Of a stretch of DNA of 64,000 nucleotides, positions 47 through 13,381 are shown in pieces; position 1 is the stretch's first letter; the number at the start of each line of letters is the position of its first letter. The stretch comes from Tepidiforma flava (GTDB lineage Bacteria > Chloroflexota > Dehalococcoidia > Tepidiformales > Tepidiformaceae), in assembly GCF_027594505.1 (NCBI RefSeq), contig NZ_CP115149.1, positions 2,066,227-2,130,226 on the forward strand. Reading direction: 5' to 3'. Position numbers and translations under genes: made by a program. The notes under the pieces are model-generated. The model worked only from the letters and a program-made list of their open reading frames with translations, had not been told where the DNA came from and ran no database searches.

Positions 47-269
47 CGGGCAAGCCCTCCTCGAGGAGCAGGTTCTCTACGGCGGCGATGAGCTGGTGCG
101 CCTGCCGCGGCGTCAGCTCGGCGGCGATGACGCGCAGGTAGCCGCCGGCATGCGGGTTCAGCACCACCGCCAGCCGGAGCCGCGGCCGCCCGGCGGCGTC
201 CGTCACGGGTTCGATGGCGAGCGCGCGGCCGTCGCAGCGGACGGACTGGCGGCGGAGCGCGGCGATCAT
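39..269 (-). CDS. small uncharacterised protein, 76 aa, coupled to the DnaC-like gene
   Basis: The frame is open further upstream, but the likely start is the ATG at 269-267, which overlaps the stop of the DnaC-like gene as ATGA and so predicts translational coupling. The product begins MIAALRRQSVRCDG and has a short basic and hydrophobic N-terminus, then a predicted beta-rich part and an acidic helix ending LLLEEGLPDE. I recognise no family. Its place at the end of the replication operon of the integrated element suggests a small phage-type accessory protein; that is inference only. Confidence 0.5.
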   Translation of the reverse strand: MIAALRRQSVRCDGRALAIEPVTDAAGRPRLRLAVVLNPHAGGYLRVIAAELTPRQAHQLIAAVENLLLEEGLPDE

Positions 270-1135
270 GCGGCGTCCCTCGGCGCGCCCATCCGGCGGT
301 CCGGGCCGGTGACCTGGACCACCACGGACGAGGCGGTGTCGACGAGCCGCGAGCGGACGCGCGGCGCCAGCTCCTGCAGCGTCACGTTCGAGGTCACGAC
401 CATCGGCAGAGCGTCGCGGTAGCGGCCGTCGACGAGCGCGAAGAGCCGTTCTTCGGCCCATTCGGTGCCGCGGTGGGCGCCGAGGTCGTCGAGGACGAGG
501 AGCGGGACGCGGAGGAGCTGCTCCTGGACGTCGTCGACGGTTTCGGTGGCGCGGTCGGGGTCGGAGGCGCGGCGGAGCCGGTCGAGGAGGTCGACGACGG
601 GCCAGAACTGACCGCGGACGCCGTGCTGTTCGAAGACCTGCCTGAGGATGCCGCAGGCGAGGTGGGTCTTGCCGGTGCCGCGCTCGCCGGTGAGGAAGAG
701 CACCGGTTTCGGCGGCGGCCAGCTGGCGGCGTAGGCTGCGGCGGCGAGGCGCGGCTTGCCGTCCGGCGGCAGCCAGGTCTCGATGCGGACGGGCCGGTAG
801 CGGGCGGGGATGCGCATGCGCTCTTCGGGCGGCGGCGCGGGCTGGCTCCCGGGAGCGGGCGTGATTGCGGCGGCGCCGGCGCAGGCGGGGCAGGGTTCGG
901 AGCGGCCGAACATCGGGTGGCCGGCGGGCCAGCCGCGGCGGATGCGGCCGCCATCGCGGCAGACGCAGCAGCGGTGGCGCCAGTCGGGCGGTTCGACGTC
1001 GTCGGCGCCGCAGGCGGGGCAGCGGGGGAGCTCGCCCCAGCCGGGGCGCGGCTCATTCGACGAGGGCGCCGGCTGCCCGGAGCTGGGCGAGGATGGGGTC
1101 GTCAGCGCCCCAAGGGCGTCCTTGAGCGTTCGCAT
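266..1135 (-). CDS. DnaC/IstB-like AAA+ ATPase, probable helicase loader
   Basis: 289 aa. The C-terminal two thirds is a DnaC/IstB-type AAA+ domain: Walker A GERGTGKTHL, Walker B LLVLDDLGAHRG followed by a Glu-rich EERL helix, and a sensor-like VVTSNVT then RSRLVD (arginine-finger region). The N-terminus carries Cys pairs (CPACGADD, CCVCRDGG, CPACAG) that suggest a zinc ribbon. Family knowledge: such ATPases load the replicative helicase at phage or plasmid origins. The start ATG at 1135 has an AGGAGG six bases upstream, and the gene begins inside the 3' end of the replication initiator gene (83 bp overlap). IstB-type transposition helpers look alike, but no transposase is present, so helicase loading fits better. 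Confidence 0.8.
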   Translation of the reverse strand: MRTLKDALGALTTPSSPSSGQPAPSSNEPRPGWGELPRCPACGADDVEPPDWRHRCCVCRDGGRIRRGWPAGHPMFGRSEPCPACAGAAAITPAPGSQPAPPPEERMRIPARYRPVRIETWLPPDGKPRLAAAAYAASWPPPKPVLFLTGERGTGKTHLACGILRQVFEQHGVRGQFWPVVDLLDRLRRASDPDRATETVDDVQEQLLRVPLLVLDDLGAHRGTEWAEERLFALVDGRYRDALPMVVTSNVTLQELAPRVRSRLVDTASSVVVQVTGPDRRMGAPRDAA

Positions 1136-2087
1136 GCTGCACCTCCTGCAGGATGGCCCGGACCCGGGAGGGGAACGGGAGCTGGCTGCGCCGGCGGCAT
1201 TCGGCGATGGCGGCGGCGACGGCCTCGTGGGCGCCGGCGAAGTCGCGGCCGAGCTGGGCGGCTTCGTCGAACGTGAGCGGGTCGGCCTGGAACTTCCGCG
1301 GGAGCGCCGCGAGCACCAGGTCGCGCACTTCGCGGACGGCCGGCGGGTCGGCGGCGGATGGACCGCCGGGGGCCTCCTCGAGGGCGCCGGCGGCAGCGGC
1401 CGGGCTGCGCTCGGGGAGGGATTTCAGGTCGTCGTCGCGCGCTTTGCGCGCTGGATGTGACGACGACGACCGAAGGGAGGAGTCGTCACATCTCTGGGGT
1501 CGTAAAGGGGATGTGGCATCGCTCGAGCATCCCTCGAGCATCGGCTGAGCATCGCCTTCGGCATGCTCGGAGCATGCGTCGAGCATGCCGTCGGGCATGC
1601 GCCGCGCATGGGCTGCGGCATGCGCCGGGCATGCGGTTGGCATGCCGTCCGGCATGCGGGGAGCATCGGCTGGCGATGCGGGCGGCTGCTGATCCGGCGC
1701 CTGCTGCGGGGCAGCCGCGGCTGCTGCCGGCGGCGACTCACCGGCTTCGCGCGGGCGCCGGCTCCAGCGGGCGGAGGCGGCGGCGCCGGCGCGCTCGGAC
1801 CGCCGCTTCCGCTCGTCGTCGAGCTCGGCGCGGCTCGGGTTATAGAGAAGATAGTCGTGGATGACCCAGCCGCCGGCGGTCTGCTCCCAGAGGCCGGCGG
1901 CTTCGAGCTCGGCGGCGGTCCGCTTCGAGCCGAGGATGACGGGGAGGACGCCGGCCGGGATGAAGCCGTCCGTCTCGTGCTGGGAGGCGTAGCAGAGCGC
2001 CAGGACGTGCACCCGGAAGGCGCGGCCGCTGAGCGAGACGACCTTCGGGTGATGGCCGAACGTGTCGTCGAGGCGGACCCAGCTCAT
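1053..2087 (-). CDS. phage-type replication initiator with internal iteron array
   Basis: 344 aa. The N-terminal ~110 residues (WVRLDDTFGHHPKVVSL, then GVLPVILGSKRTAAELE and a WVIHDYLLYNPSR segment) resemble the N-terminal DNA-binding domains of phage replisome organisers. The middle (about residues 115-240) is low-complexity and Ala/Pro/His/Met rich; the C-terminal ~100 residues look helical. The ATG at 2087 is preferred over a GTG at 2096 because it overlaps the previous stop as ATGA and has GGAGG eight bases upstream. The DnaC-like gene follows, the same initiator-then-loader order as lambda O and P. Residues about 140-190 are encoded by a helically phased GCAT array. The initiator assignment rests on N-terminal resemblance and context, so it is probable rather than proven. 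Confidence 0.65.
   Translation of the reverse strand: MSWVRLDDTFGHHPKVVSLSGRAFRVHVLALCYASQHETDGFIPAGVLPVILGSKRTAAELEAAGLWEQTAGGWVIHDYLLYNPSRAELDDERKRRSERAGAAASARWSRRPREAGESPPAAAAAAPQQAPDQQPPASPADAPRMPDGMPTACPAHAAAHARRMPDGMLDACSEHAEGDAQPMLEGCSSDATSPLRPQRCDDSSLRSSSSHPARKARDDDLKSLPERSPAAAAGALEEAPGGPSAADPPAVREVRDLVLAALPRKFQADPLTFDEAAQLGRDFAGAHEAVAAAIAECRRRSQLPFPSRVRAILQEVQHANAQGRPWGADDPILAQLRAAGALVE
1516..1666. repeat. iteron-like array: 14 GCAT cores at 11-12 bp spacing, candidate origin
   Basis: GCAT begins at 1516, 1527, 1538, 1549, 1561, 1572, 1583, 1595, 1606, 1618, 1629, 1640, 1652 and 1663. Spacings are only 11 or 12 bp, about one helical turn, so every core faces the same side of the DNA. 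Many cores extend to the palindrome GCATGC. Because 11 is not a multiple of three, successive cores fall in different codon frames, so protein sequence alone does not explain the period. Arrays of this kind inside an initiator gene are typical of theta-replication origins, as in lambda O. Confidence 0.8.
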
Positions 2088-2251
2088 CCGCGGCACCTCC
2101 GGAGCGAGAACGATGTCCCGACCACGCAGGCCGGGTTCGCGCAGGGGAGAGCGGCCGCGCCGGCGGCAGCTGCGAGCTCGTCGCCGTGCGGGACGACGTA
2201 CTCGTCGATGACGAACCGGCCGCGGCGGATGCGGACGTGGAGGTGGGGCAT
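2084..2251 (-). CDS. small protein, 55 aa, upstream of the replication initiator
   Basis: An ATG at 2251-2249 with GGAGGA nine bases upstream opens 55 codons beginning MPHLHVRIRRGRFVIDEY and ending RRCRG, with its TGA overlapping the initiator ATG (ATGA). The basic first half and two Cys residues (LPCANPAC) are the only visible features. Clean ribosome binding sites on both sides and coupled spacing support real translation. Function is unknown; a short regulator or DNA-binding accessory of the replication operon is a guess. Confidence 0.55.
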   Translation of the reverse strand: MPHLHVRIRRGRFVIDEYVVPHGDELAAAAGAAALPCANPACVVGTSFSLRRCRG

Positions 2252-2255
2252 GGCG

Positions 2256-2495
2256 TCAGTTCCTCCCGAGCCAGGCGACGGCGCGGAGGTCGAGCCAGCC
2301 GCCGCGCCAGAGGGCGTACGGGCTGCGGGCGGCCGCCAGCGGCGCGCGCCGGTCGACGGCCCACTCCATCACCAGCTCTTCGTCCGGCGAGAGCCAGCCG
2401 AAGCGGGATTCGTAATCCCCGGCGCGCCGGCCGGCGGCAGCGAGGTCGCAGCCGGGCGCCGGGAGCCAGTTCGCGGTAAGCGGCCACCGGTTCAT
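2256..2495 (-). CDS. small uncharacterised phage-type protein, 79 aa
   Basis: The start is taken as the ATG at 2495 (MNRWPLTANWLPAPG), which overlaps the stop of the gene before it as ATGA and has GGAGGG seven bases upstream. In-frame starts at 2501 and 2510 are less well placed. The product is rich in Trp and acidic residues (GWLSPDEELVMEWAVDRR) and ends with a WRGGWLDLRAVAWLGRN segment. No family recognised. It sits in the compact leftward operon between a Cys-containing small protein and the 55-aa protein. Confidence 0.5.
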   Translation of the reverse strand: MNRWPLTANWLPAPGCDLAAAGRRAGDYESRFGWLSPDEELVMEWAVDRRAPLAAARSPYALWRGGWLDLRAVAWLGRN

Positions 2496-2734
2496 GCCCA
2501 TTCCCTCCACTCGCGCACCCGGAGGTAAGACGGGAGGTCGGTGTGGTAGATGGCCGGGTAGAGGCGATCACGGCTGATGCCCCGTCCGGCGGCCTGGCCG
2601 ACCCACGCCTCGTGCGAGGCCGGGAAGCGGCGGCAGGCGCCGCAGGCAGCGCAGCGGCCTTCGAGCCACGGCGTGCCGTTCGGCTCGTCGATGCGCCAGC
2701 GGTGGACGTGGCGGTCACGCTGCCGGGCCGTCAT
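2492..2734 (-). CDS. small protein with CAACGAC zinc-knuckle-like motif, 80 aa
   Basis: 80 aa starting MTARQRDRHVHRWRIDEP and containing GRCAACGACRRFPAS, a CxxCxxC cluster with His residues upstream that could bind a metal. The rest is a helical, Trp/Tyr-rich C-terminus (YLRVREWREWA). The gene begins 20 bp inside the end of the recombinase gene, so the two are probably co-translated. Small zinc-knuckle proteins of unknown role are common in phage early operons; no specific function can be given. Confidence 0.5.
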   Translation of the reverse strand: MTARQRDRHVHRWRIDEPNGTPWLEGRCAACGACRRFPASHEAWVGQAAGRGISRDRLYPAIYHTDLPSYLRVREWREWA

Positions 2735-3590
2735 CGCCGTCCCCCTGTTCGAAGCGGTAGACCTCGGCGACGAGGGTGATGACGTCGGCCTCCGGGTTGC
2801 GCCGGAACCATTCGCGCACCTTCGCCGCCGGGCCGAGGCGGTTCGGGCCGAGCTCGGCGTCGAGGTAGGCGACGAGCTGCTGTTTGGTGAGGCCGTTGGC
2901 GCGGAGGGCGTGGCCGAGCGCCTCCCACTGGCCGCGGTCGAGCTGGACGGGCGGTTCGCCGGCGCCGGCTGCGGGCAGCGGGTGCGGTTCGAGCAGCTCG
3001 CCGGTCTCCCGGTCGACGCGGGCTGGCCGGGCGCCGGGGACGTCGCCGGCTTCGGTCTCGTCCATCCAGCCGAGGCCGGCGAGGGAGAGGGTGGCGCGGC
3101 GCTTCGCCTTCGTCTCGGCCTTCATGAGGGCGTTGGCGAGCGGTTCGCCTTTGAGGCCGGCGATGCTGACAGCGCCGACGGCTTCGTCGCTGCGGCCGGT
3201 GCGGTCGACGGCGCGGGCGGTGACGACGTAGAGGCCGGCCTCGGCGAGCATTTCGCGGCTGGTGATTTCAACGGAGATGCCGCGGTTCGCCCGAAGCTGG
3301 TCGGTGGCGGTGCGGGTGGCGTAGAGGACGAGGCGGCCGTTGAGGTGGAGGTAGTCCAACGGCTTGGTGAGCGGGTTGAGGCCGAGCGAGTCGCAGACGC
3401 GGCGGTAGTAGTCGAGCCGCTGGGCGGGCGTGAGCCGGGCGAGGTCGCCGCCGACGATGACCTGTTCGAGGAGGGCGCCGGCGTCGGCGGCGGCGGGCTG
3501 GGGCTGGGCCGGCGCGGCGGGCTGGGGCTGGGCCGGCGCGGCGGGCGCGTCGGCGAGAGCGGGCTGGATGGTGGCGGTGTCGGCGGTCAT
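2715..3590 (-). CDS. putative phage single-strand annealing recombinase (RecT/Bet-like)
   Basis: 291 aa. After a Pro/Ala/Gln-rich N-terminal tail comes CDSLGLNPLTKPLDYLHLNG, the kind of segment seen early in RecT/Bet-type annealing proteins, then RLVLYATRTATDQLR, IAGLKGEPLANALMKAETK and KAKRRATLSLAGLGWMDETE. The last part is conserved in many phage proteins annotated as recombinases or hypotheticals. Role by family: annealing single-stranded DNA during recombination-dependent phage replication, which suits its place upstream of the initiator and loader. No exonuclease partner lies in the window. The start ATG at 3590 overlaps the stop of the LexA-like frame (ATGA). The recombinase call is moderate; the family boundary is uncertain. 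Confidence 0.55.
   Translation of the reverse strand: MTADTATIQPALADAPAAPAQPQPAAPAQPQPAAADAGALLEQVIVGGDLARLTPAQRLDYYRRVCDSLGLNPLTKPLDYLHLNGRLVLYATRTATDQLRANRGISVEITSREMLAEAGLYVVTARAVDRTGRSDEAVGAVSIAGLKGEPLANALMKAETKAKRRATLSLAGLGWMDETEAGDVPGARPARVDRETGELLEPHPLPAAGAGEPPVQLDRGQWEALGHALRANGLTKQQLVAYLDAELGPNRLGPAAKVREWFRRNPEADVITLVAEVYRFEQGDGDDGPAA
3492..3539. repeat. two perfect 24-bp tandem repeats in the recombinase N-terminal tail
   Basis: A 24-bp unit beginning GGCGGGCTGGGGCTGG occurs twice back to back (3492-3515 and 3516-3539) and starts a third time. It encodes the repeated AAPAQPQP stretch of the recombinase tail. As a multiple of three it preserves the frame, so it probably reflects slippage in an unconstrained linker. 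Confidence 0.7.
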
Positions 3591-3823
3591 CGTGCCTCCT
3601 TCAGCTGCAGGTGTTCGAGCCCGCGCGGGGTGAGCCGGAGCGAGCGGAAGGTGCGGTCGTCCCAGTCGAGGTAGCCTTCGTCGCGCAGTTCGTGGAGCCA
3701 GTAGTAGGCGGTGCTCGAACCGCGGAAGCCGGCGCGCTCGGCGAGTTCGCGGACGGTGGGCGGGATGCCGCGTTCGCGCCAGAGGCTGGCGGCGGCCCAG
3801 CGGCCCGGCGGTAGCGGGGCGTG
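3587..3823 (-). pseudogene. LexA N-terminal-type winged-helix domain without a normal start or protease domain
   Basis: The open frame encodes about 78 residues closely matching the DNA-binding domain of LexA: LWRERGIPPTVRELAERAGF, then GSSTAYYWLHELRDEGYL and a wing-like FRSLRLTPRGLEHL. The Ser/Lys self-cleavage domain of LexA is absent. Upstream the frame is closed by an amber TAG at 3826-3824, and no ATG, GTG or TTG lies between that TAG and the domain; a further 100 codons are open before it. The TGA overlaps the ATG of the recombinase gene. Either the gene is a decayed repressor, or a non-canonical start or amber readthrough expresses it. A SOS-type operator lies upstream at 4132-4145. 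Confidence 0.55.
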
Positions 3824-4145: not shown

Positions 4146-4314
4146 AGCGAGGTGAGGCCATGGTAGCGGACCGGTTTGGCGAGCCGGGAGGGGTGTGCGG
4201 CATGACGTCAGGGGTTGGCGCGGTGTGGGCCCCGGCATCGGGAAAGCGACAGCGGCTGACGCGTCTTGATGGTAAAGATCGGGGGAAGTTCTCACGAGCT
4301 GAACGGAGGTGGCG

Positions 4315-7308
<2,994 letters not shown>

Positions 7309-8058: not shown

Positions 8059-8182
8059 GTTACTCCTTCCACAGCATGGTGGATGAGCTACACGGACTAT
8101 CGCTAAGGTGTAACGTTATGAGCAAGTGTTTGGTTAAGAGAGCGCCTCCGGGGTCCCGGCGCGGGTGGGGTGGAATGTCGGC

Positions 8183-11329
<3,147 letters not shown>

Positions 11330-11403: not shown

Positions 11404-12390
11404 ATGCGCGGCAGCATCCAGAAGCGCGGCAACCTCACCTGGCGCATCTCCATCGAGCTCGACCGCGACCCGATGACGGGGCGCCGGCGGCGCCGCTCCG
11501 AGACGTTCCACGGCACGAAGCGCGACGCGGAGGCGCGGCTCGCCCAGCTCATCCATGAGCACGAAACCGGCCTCGCCGTCGACCCGAGCCGCATCACCGT
11601 CGCTGAGTGGCTGCGGCAGTGGCTCGCCCAGCGCGCACCACAGCTCCGGCCGACGACGCTCGAGCGCTACCGGGCCAGCGTCGAGAGCCGGCTTATCCCG
11701 GCGTTCGGGCGCCTCCAGCTCCAGCAGCTCCGGCCCGCCCACGTCCAGGCCGCCTACGGCCGCTGGCTCGCCGAAGGCCTCGCGCCGGCCACCGTTGCCA
11801 GCCACCACCGCATCCTCGGCCGCGCCCTCAACGACGCCGTCCGCCTCCAGCTCGTCGGACGCGCCGTCACACAAGCCGTCGAGGTGCCGTCCATCCAGCC
11901 GCATCAGCTGCGGCTCGAGCAGGACACTCTCGCCCGCGTTCTCGAGGCCGTGAGCGGCGAGCCGCAGCCGTGGCGCGCCGCCGGGCTCCTCATCGTCCAC
12001 ACCGGCATGCGCCGCGGCGAACTCTGCGGCCTCCAGTGGCCCGACCTCGACCTCGACCGCGGCACCGCCGCCATCCGGCGCACCCGCACCACCACCTACC
12101 GGGGCATGGTCGTCGAAGGGCCGACGAAGACCCGCGCCGGCGAGCGCGTGATTCCCGTCGCCCCGCCGGCCGTCGAAGCCCTGCGCGAATGGCGCCGGGC
12201 GCAGCTGGAGGAGCGGCTCGCCGCGGGCGCCGGCTGGCAGGGCGGCGATTGGGTGTTCACCATCGGCGGGCAGCCGGCAAGGCCAGATTCCGTCACCCAC
12301 TGGTGGACGCGAACGGCGCGTCGGGCGGGCGTCGGCCTGCGGCTGCACGACCTTCGCCACCTGGCGGCGACGCTGATGGCCCAGCACGCC
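11404..12390 (+). pseudogene. int: tyrosine integrase truncated before the catalytic Tyr
   Basis: About 329 codons read as a phage-type tyrosine recombinase: an AP2-like arm-binding start (MRGSIQKRGNLTWRISIEL), an SAM-like core-binding domain (TVAEWLRQWLAQRAP onward), then the catalytic domain with TGMRRGELCGLQWPDL (first catalytic Arg) and LRLHDLRHLAATLMAQHA (His-x-x-Arg). The expected GH box and the Tyr nucleophile, which should follow within ~60 residues, are missing: near 12387 the similarity stops and the sequence continues in another frame as the end of a dehydrogenase gene. The frame stays open to 12927 by chance, running through the tRNA. As it stands the protein cannot recombine DNA. 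It marks the right end of the integrated element. Confidence 0.85.
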
Positions 12391-12683
12391 GCGCCGCCTA
12401 CCGCATCATCGCCGGCAAAGGTGCGACCTACTACGGCGTCGCCGGCGCTGTCGCCCGCCTCCTCCGCGCCATCCGCGACGACGAGCACGCTGTCCTCACC
12501 GTTTCCGCCGTCGGTCGGCCCGGGACCAGCTATGGCGACGTCGCCCTTTCGCTGCCCCGCGTCGTCGGCGCCGGCGGCATCGAAGCCGAACTCCTGCCGC
12601 CGCTCGTCGATGACGAAGCCGACGCCCTCGCGCGGAGCGCCGGCATCCTCCGCGACGCCCTTCGCTCGCTCCCTCGCCCCTGA
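12387..12683 (+). pseudogene. C-terminal fragment of an L-lactate/malate dehydrogenase gene
   Basis: In the frame ending at TGA 12681-12683, about 98 codons read RRAAYRIIAGKGATYYGV, AVLTVSAVGRPGTSYGDVAL, SLPRVVGAGGIEAELLPPL and RSAGILRDALRSL. This is the conserved C-terminal third of NAD-dependent lactate/malate dehydrogenases (after the catalytic His region). The Rossmann domain and active site are absent, and the fragment is fused out of frame to the truncated integrase. It is therefore the surviving 3' end of a host gene interrupted by the element or joined to it by deletion; the 5' part, if kept, lies left of this window. Confidence 0.85.
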
Positions 12684-12708
12684 CGGGCTCTGGCAGACGC
12701 CCCGCACG

Positions 12709-12735
12709 AAAAAACGCCGCCCGGGCGGGCGGCGT
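12709..12735 (-). terminator. intrinsic terminator of the tRNA-Gly transcript
   Basis: ACGCCGCCC (12714-12722) pairs perfectly with GGGCGGCGT (12727-12735) around a four-base loop. On the minus strand the stem is followed directly by six T residues (12714-12709). It lies 18 bases beyond the tRNA 3' end, so it should stop leftward transcription before the dehydrogenase remnant. Confidence 0.85.
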
Positions 12736-12752
12736 CATGCTGTTCGAACGGT

Positions 12753-12826
12753 TGGAGCGGATGGCGGGAATCGAACCCGCGTCTCAACCTTGGGAAGGTC
12801 GCGTTCTGCCATTGAACCACACCCGC
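12753..12826 (-). tRNA. tRNA-Gly, anticodon CCC
   Basis: The minus strand folds as a complete cloverleaf: acceptor GCGGGTG/CATCCGC (one G-U pair), D arm with GGTTCAATGGCAGAAC, anticodon stem CGACC/GGTTG with loop TTCCCAA giving anticodon CCC, a short variable loop, and a T arm with GGTTCGATTCC. Discriminator U is followed by an encoded CCA (12755-12753). It reads GGG codons. It lies just outside the integrase/dehydrogenase junction; tRNA genes are common integration sites, but here the junction falls in the dehydrogenase gene. Confidence 0.95.
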
Positions 12827-12880: not shown

Positions 12881-13381
12881 ATGCCCATCCCCAAAGAACT
12901 CTCCCTGACCCCGGAACAGCTCGATGAGCTCATGCTCTCGACCTGGAACATGCGCATCGCCACCATCGGGCCCGGCACCCGCATCAACCTCACGCCGCTC
13001 TGGTTCGGCTGGGCCGGCGGCAAGATCTACACCTTCTGCCGCGGCCAGAAGGTCGAAAACCTCCGCCGCAACCCTACCTGCACCATCCTCGTCGACCGCA
13101 ACGAGCGCTTCCCCGAGCTCCAGGGCGCGATGTTCCAGGGCACGGCCCGCGTCCTCGAAGACGCTGCCGCCGAGGCCGCCGACCCCCACCTCGAAGAGGT
13201 TCGCTGGCAGATGGGCCGCAAGTACGCCGGCGGCCACGGCGAACCCGCCGAGCCCCGCCGCAACGAATCCACGGCCCGCGGTCGCAACTGGCGCTGGGTC
13301 GTCTTTACCCCCGAAAAGGTCGTGACCTGGGACAACTTCAAACTCGCCGCCCTCCGCCGGGAGCGCCAAACGGGGACTTGA
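12881..13381 (+). CDS. pyridoxamine 5'-phosphate oxidase-like FMN/F420-binding protein
   Basis: 166 aa. The split-barrel fold is suggested by STWNMRIATIGPGTRINL, TPLWFGWAGGKIYTFCRGQ, VENLRRNPTCTILVDRNE, QGAMFQGTARVLED and the C-terminal WRWVVFTPEKVVTWDNFKL, the strand order of PPOX-class oxidoreductases. Such proteins bind FMN, F420 or heme and reduce diverse small molecules; the substrate cannot be told from sequence. The ATG at 12881 has GAGGTG about nine bases upstream. It is monocistronic or paired with the CBS gene 40 bp downstream. Confidence 0.8.
   Translation: MPIPKELSLTPEQLDELMLSTWNMRIATIGPGTRINLTPLWFGWAGGKIYTFCRGQKVENLRRNPTCTILVDRNERFPELQGAMFQGTARVLEDAAAEAADPHLEEVRWQMGRKYAGGHGEPAEPRRNESTARGRNWRWVVFTPEKVVTWDNFKLAALRRERQTGT

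Follow-up and report, generated by a model that had tools for sequence, protein, structure and literature searches.

A truncated integrase joined to a duplicate ldh 3' end in a decayed tRNA-Gly island of Tepidiforma flava

Organization of the right end of the island

The window (the whole 64,000-nucleotide stretch of DNA analyzed here; C1:2066227-2130226) is from the one-contig, 2.77-Mb genome of the hot-spring bacterium T. flava and contains the right end of an island that measures about 29.9 kb between its flanking direct repeats (Table 1). Within the window, the island encodes a type I methyltransferase and restriction enzyme and a phage-type replication block, the replication initiation protein of which is 52% identical to one encoded about 6 kb from the integrase gene of G004, a genome of the same genus. 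Type III components (Cas10, Csm5, and a weak match to Csx1/Csm6) were identified outside the window near two CRISPR arrays, one with 30 repeats and three spacers present twice (L009:12624-14972) and the other in reverse orientation with scattered Ns (L010:8526-9255). Comparison of the spacers with the loci examined returned only matches of 16-17 nt, which is the level expected by chance. A SAM riboswitch (L009:9010-9116, C1:2049009-2049115; Rfam score of 55 bits against a gathering threshold of 44) was also identified outside the window, at the left end of the island, immediately before a gene pair that encodes a MoxR-like AAA ATPase and a DUF2201/VWA protein, genes that are unusual downstream of this riboswitch.

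Table 1. Features in the window (positions counted from its first nucleotide)
Feature	Position	Strand	Evidence
Phage-type replication block: DnaC-like loader, replication initiation protein, LexA-like DNA-binding protein	266..3820	-	PHROGs, Pfam
Type I methyltransferase HsdM	4309..5973	+	Pfam, PADLOC
Type I restriction enzyme HsdR	8165..11329	+	PADLOC
Truncated tyrosine integrase (int)	11404..12387	+	Pfam/PHROGs matches; alignment; intact relatives 76% (L149) and 63% (G004) identical
Duplicate 3' third of host ldh (codons ~214-311)	12387..12683	+	Ldh_1_C match; identity to intact ldh
Right copy of the ~415-bp direct repeat flanking the island (ldh 3' end, terminator, tRNA 3' half)	12387..12802		Alignment
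Terminator-like hairpin common to ldh and tRNA-Gly	12709..12738		Found in both repeat copies
tRNA-Gly(CCC), complete; 3' half (12753-12802) is the att core	12753..12826	-	ARAGORN; displaced copies elsewhere
Pyridoxamine-phosphate-oxidase-like (PNPOx-like) gene, host right flank	12881..13381	+	Pfam; adjoins tRNA-Gly in relatives (synteny)

The integrase gene at the right end is recognized by the profiles Phage_int_SAM_3 and Phage_integrase, although the Phage_integrase match ends at position 143 of 172, and the gene retains 328 of approximately 377 codons. Alignment with related integrases indicates that R203, K242, H315, and R318 are retained and that the box III GH motif and the catalytic Tyr, both present in the relatives, are missing, as a preliminary description of this DNA had proposed. 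The same description placed a stop near 12387, where ldh sequence starts and where int breaks off after HDLRHLAATLMAQH. The int reading frame in fact runs on past this point as a 507-codon ORF to 12927, the last ~180 codons of which are not integrase. The gene beside the tRNA is thus not a catalytically complete integrase, as it is in G004 and in the viral contig L149, where the GH box and Tyr are present. Because these residues are lacking, the element is a decayed derivative of a tRNA-integrated tyrosine-integrase prophage or island. All other Phage_integrase matches in the T. flava genome are far from the island, and no resolvase-family serine recombinase was found in this genome.

At position 12387 the sequence passes into the final 98 codons of a lactate/malate dehydrogenase, read in a frame different from that of int (Ldh_1_C, E = 4.6e-10), and both this match and alignment to the intact host ldh bear out the out-of-frame join recognized previously. 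The join is sharp: the first 100 bases are identical to the intact host ldh, and identity then extends to 399 of 418 aligned columns overall. This similarity defines the direct repeat that flanks the island, which spans ldh codon ~214 to the anticodon region of the tRNA and has its left copy outside the window (C1:2048293-2048707; L009 8294-8708). The two copies are 96% identical, with 16 mismatches and 3 gap columns. Their ldh portions differ at 10 of 297 sites; when G002 and G001 were used as outgroups, four changes were assigned to each copy and two were unclear, and this 4:4 split comprises too few sites to show whether one copy came in as a separate allele or the segment was duplicated earlier in the same lineage, or to date the event.

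Among the seven genomes or records searched, the joined int and ldh sequence is present only in the T. flava genome; the relatives in this set have both parts, but apart. At the join, related integrase genes and the host ldh show a chance similarity in register; for three relatives, which are not independent of each other, 2, 8, and 9 of 300 shuffles reached the observed score. The tract of strict microhomology at this point may be short, which weighs against the origin preferred below.

The left end and the tRNA-Gly site in relatives

Searching the genome for the dehydrogenase N-terminus led to an intact, 311-aa ldh at C1:2047654-2048589 (L009:7655-8590). It is followed by the terminator, by a displaced 50-bp copy of the 3' half of tRNA-Gly(CCC) (C1:2048658-2048707, ~18 kb left of the window), and then by unrelated DNA. 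The copy in the window is therefore a duplicate of an ldh that is intact elsewhere. Past the tRNA piece, the arm resembles the left end of a prophage in G002 (81% and 73% alike). In the G002 assembly, that prophage end occurs on two different host flanks, one of them G004-like (L045:4227, L064:11037-11085), and this reflects either one phage in two co-resident species or a bin of mixed strains.

The island therefore has a complete tRNA at one end and the displaced 3' fragment of that tRNA, as a direct repeat, at the other. Displaced 50-bp copies likewise occur at the left ends of islands in T. flava, G002, and G004 and in the phage contig L149. The target of the island is tRNA-Gly, not ldh. 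In G001, ldh, tRNA, and PNPOx follow one another without an island (as seen up to the contig end), and ldh is to the left of the tRNA.

Intact relatives of the integrase show the arrangement from which the T. flava locus departs. The G004 integrase is intact (374 aa, 63% identical) and is encoded directly beside tRNA-Gly(CCC), with 146 bp between the int stop and the tRNA core and a displaced 50-bp core ~29 kb away. In L149 (IMGVR_UViG_3300045107_000296), an intact 377-aa integrase (76% identical) is followed by 137 bp with GTAGCCAAT repeats, then the tRNA-Gly core, and then phage DNA, and this is a free attP. Neither interval (137-146 bp) contains an ldh fragment. The anatomy of both island ends, the target site, and these intact relatives can be read directly from the sequences.

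The presence of ldh at this locus is variable. In T. flava, G001, and G002 it occupies the interval from a conserved upstream gene to tRNA-Gly, but it is absent from the tRNA-Gly site in G003, G004, and a G005 contig (compared: L063, L065, L066), the site being empty in G003 and the G005 contig. Other integrases of this family in the genus are beside tRNA-Ser(CGA) and tRNA-Glu(TTC), and their C-termini are mostly complete. Closely related integrases of one genus are found next to Gly-CCC, Ser-CGA, and Glu-TTC tRNAs with similar GTAGCCAA arm repeats (L047, L048, L050, L051), and integrases at such differing tRNA genes are a possible set for the study of target switching.

Origin of the join

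From ldh codon ~214 on, the right end resembles an unoccupied site. Because ldh is to the left of the tRNA and int is at the right end of the island, the second ldh-tRNA copy must come from another DNA molecule. The earlier suggestion that a rearrangement joined int to ldh with loss of the catalytic end is upheld, but its specific form, a simple deletion, does not fit the order of genes at the empty site in G001.

We infer, with a probability of about 0.62, that the join was made when int recombined illegitimately with ldh on a chromosome without the island. A prophage-derived island would first have integrated site-specifically into tRNA-Gly(CCC), between the host ldh and the PNPOx-like gene. 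A later illegitimate crossover with a copy of the locus that lacked the island would have connected int at codon ~328 to ldh at codon ~214, such that the last ~50 codons of int, the att arm, and the tRNA copy of the element were swapped for the ldh 3' end, the terminator, and the complete host tRNA. The partner may have been a sister chromosome or DNA of another strain; in the latter case a homologous crossover would have taken place in the right flank, in the manner of homology-facilitated illegitimate recombination (HFIR). HFIR uses segments of 3-10 bp (PMC6382021), and the join in T. flava is located in the patch of int/ldh similarity; the accompanying homologous crossover is presumed, neither a donor nor an intermediate having been found among the genomes and records searched. 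The 16 substitutions between repeat copies and the 4:4 division of polarizable ldh changes fit what is expected of two alleles, and two alleles fit recombination with an island-free chromosome.

They fit equally well an aberrant excision followed by homologous reintegration, which we consider unlikely. Here, illegitimate excision between ldh and int in an earlier host would have yielded a circle with truncated int joined to the ldh 3' end, terminator, and tRNA 3' half, and this circle would have integrated at an empty site, either by RecA recombination through ~400 bp of homology or with a helper integrase. Such a pathway leads to an identical final arrangement, accounts for two ldh alleles, and uses the same patch of int/ldh similarity. 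However, it needs two events, and a search of IMG/VR returned no phage contig that encodes this ldh end and none with the exact junction.

It is somewhat less probable again that the join is an assembly chimera, in which int from a strain with the island was connected at a short similar stretch to ldh-tRNA-PNPOx from a strain without it. The two ldh copies are allele-like, as a chimera would predict, and the island contains scattered Ns over 1.8 kb (L010 8460-10226). Elsewhere in the genome, two further genes are broken between reading frames, one a second member of the Ldh/Mdh family and the other an additional integrase gene (G000 C1:338327-338751 and C1:271261-271787), through either real frameshifts or sequencing errors. 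Nevertheless, the genome is a single contig, neither the window nor the left end contains any Ns, and the stretch shared at the join is far below what assemblers usually need.

The remaining reading, favored when only the right junction is viewed, is an integration-dependent switch like those of SSV or mycobacteriophages, in which an attP within int would cause integration into ldh to interrupt both genes, so that int would be whole and active only in the circle. It is refuted by the evidence from the left end and from relatives and retains a negligible probability. Where the preliminary description looked to the left junction for an ldh 5' part followed by the int 3' end with a shared core, ldh is intact and no int 3' end is present. 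The supposed target gene is unsplit, and the tRNA is complete at the right end. The core is instead in tRNA-Gly, and attP of the relatives is outside and downstream of a complete int. The relatives also have arm-type repeats, whereas integration-dependent systems are reported to be without them (PMC9635641). Moreover, the missing C-terminus was searched for with a profile of four related integrases, which recovered its controls at E < 1e-38. In both ends of the island and in a circle junction constructed from the repeats, the only match was to the final residues of the truncated int itself. Recombination between the repeats therefore would not rebuild a catalytic integrase, and the proposal that the enzyme is active only in the excised form does not hold.

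Mobility of the island and comparison with known systems

Because the element lacks the GH box and catalytic Tyr as well as the arm repeats on the int side, integrase-driven excision is predicted from the sequence to be lost unless the activity is supplied in trans. Exit of the island would now probably occur only by RecA recombination between the 415-bp repeats, which could remove the island and restore ldh-tRNA-PNPOx. The host ldh and tRNA remain whole. That circles looped out by RecA reintegrate at the same locus in related strains, with the ldh-tRNA segment as a long homology arm in place of an integrase, is conceivable but very doubtful.

Prophages and islands integrated in tRNA genes by tyrosine integrases have been mapped by Islander (PMC4383910). 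Like these, the T. flava element has int at one end beside a restored tRNA and a displaced tRNA 3' fragment at the other, and the same tRNA-Gly site is occupied by an intact prophage in G004. Unlike these, its int is without a catalytic C-terminus, and the ldh 3' duplicate replaces its own att arm. A truncated int frame beside a host gene is a feature shared with mycobacteriophages with integration-dependent immunity (PMC9635641) and with SSV-type split integrases (PMC8371274). However, the T. flava locus has no attP inside int or a repressor and no int fragment at the other end, and excision cannot rebuild int. As in HFIR products (PMC6382021), a join at short similarity on one side is paired with a presumed homologous exchange on the other, although in T. 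flava this is deduced from one natural locus.

Collectively, the locus belongs to a known kind of prophage-type island, decayed and locked in place, and is not a new genetic switch. It cautions that fusion of an integrase to a host gene need not mean a switch with attP in int, and that the other end of the element is to be read first. A single illegitimate crossover with an island-free chromosome would strip the catalytic end and the att arm while sparing the tRNA and ldh, and the T. flava locus would then be a fossil of a route by which a mobile island with defence genes (type I restriction-modification and type III CRISPR) becomes fixed.
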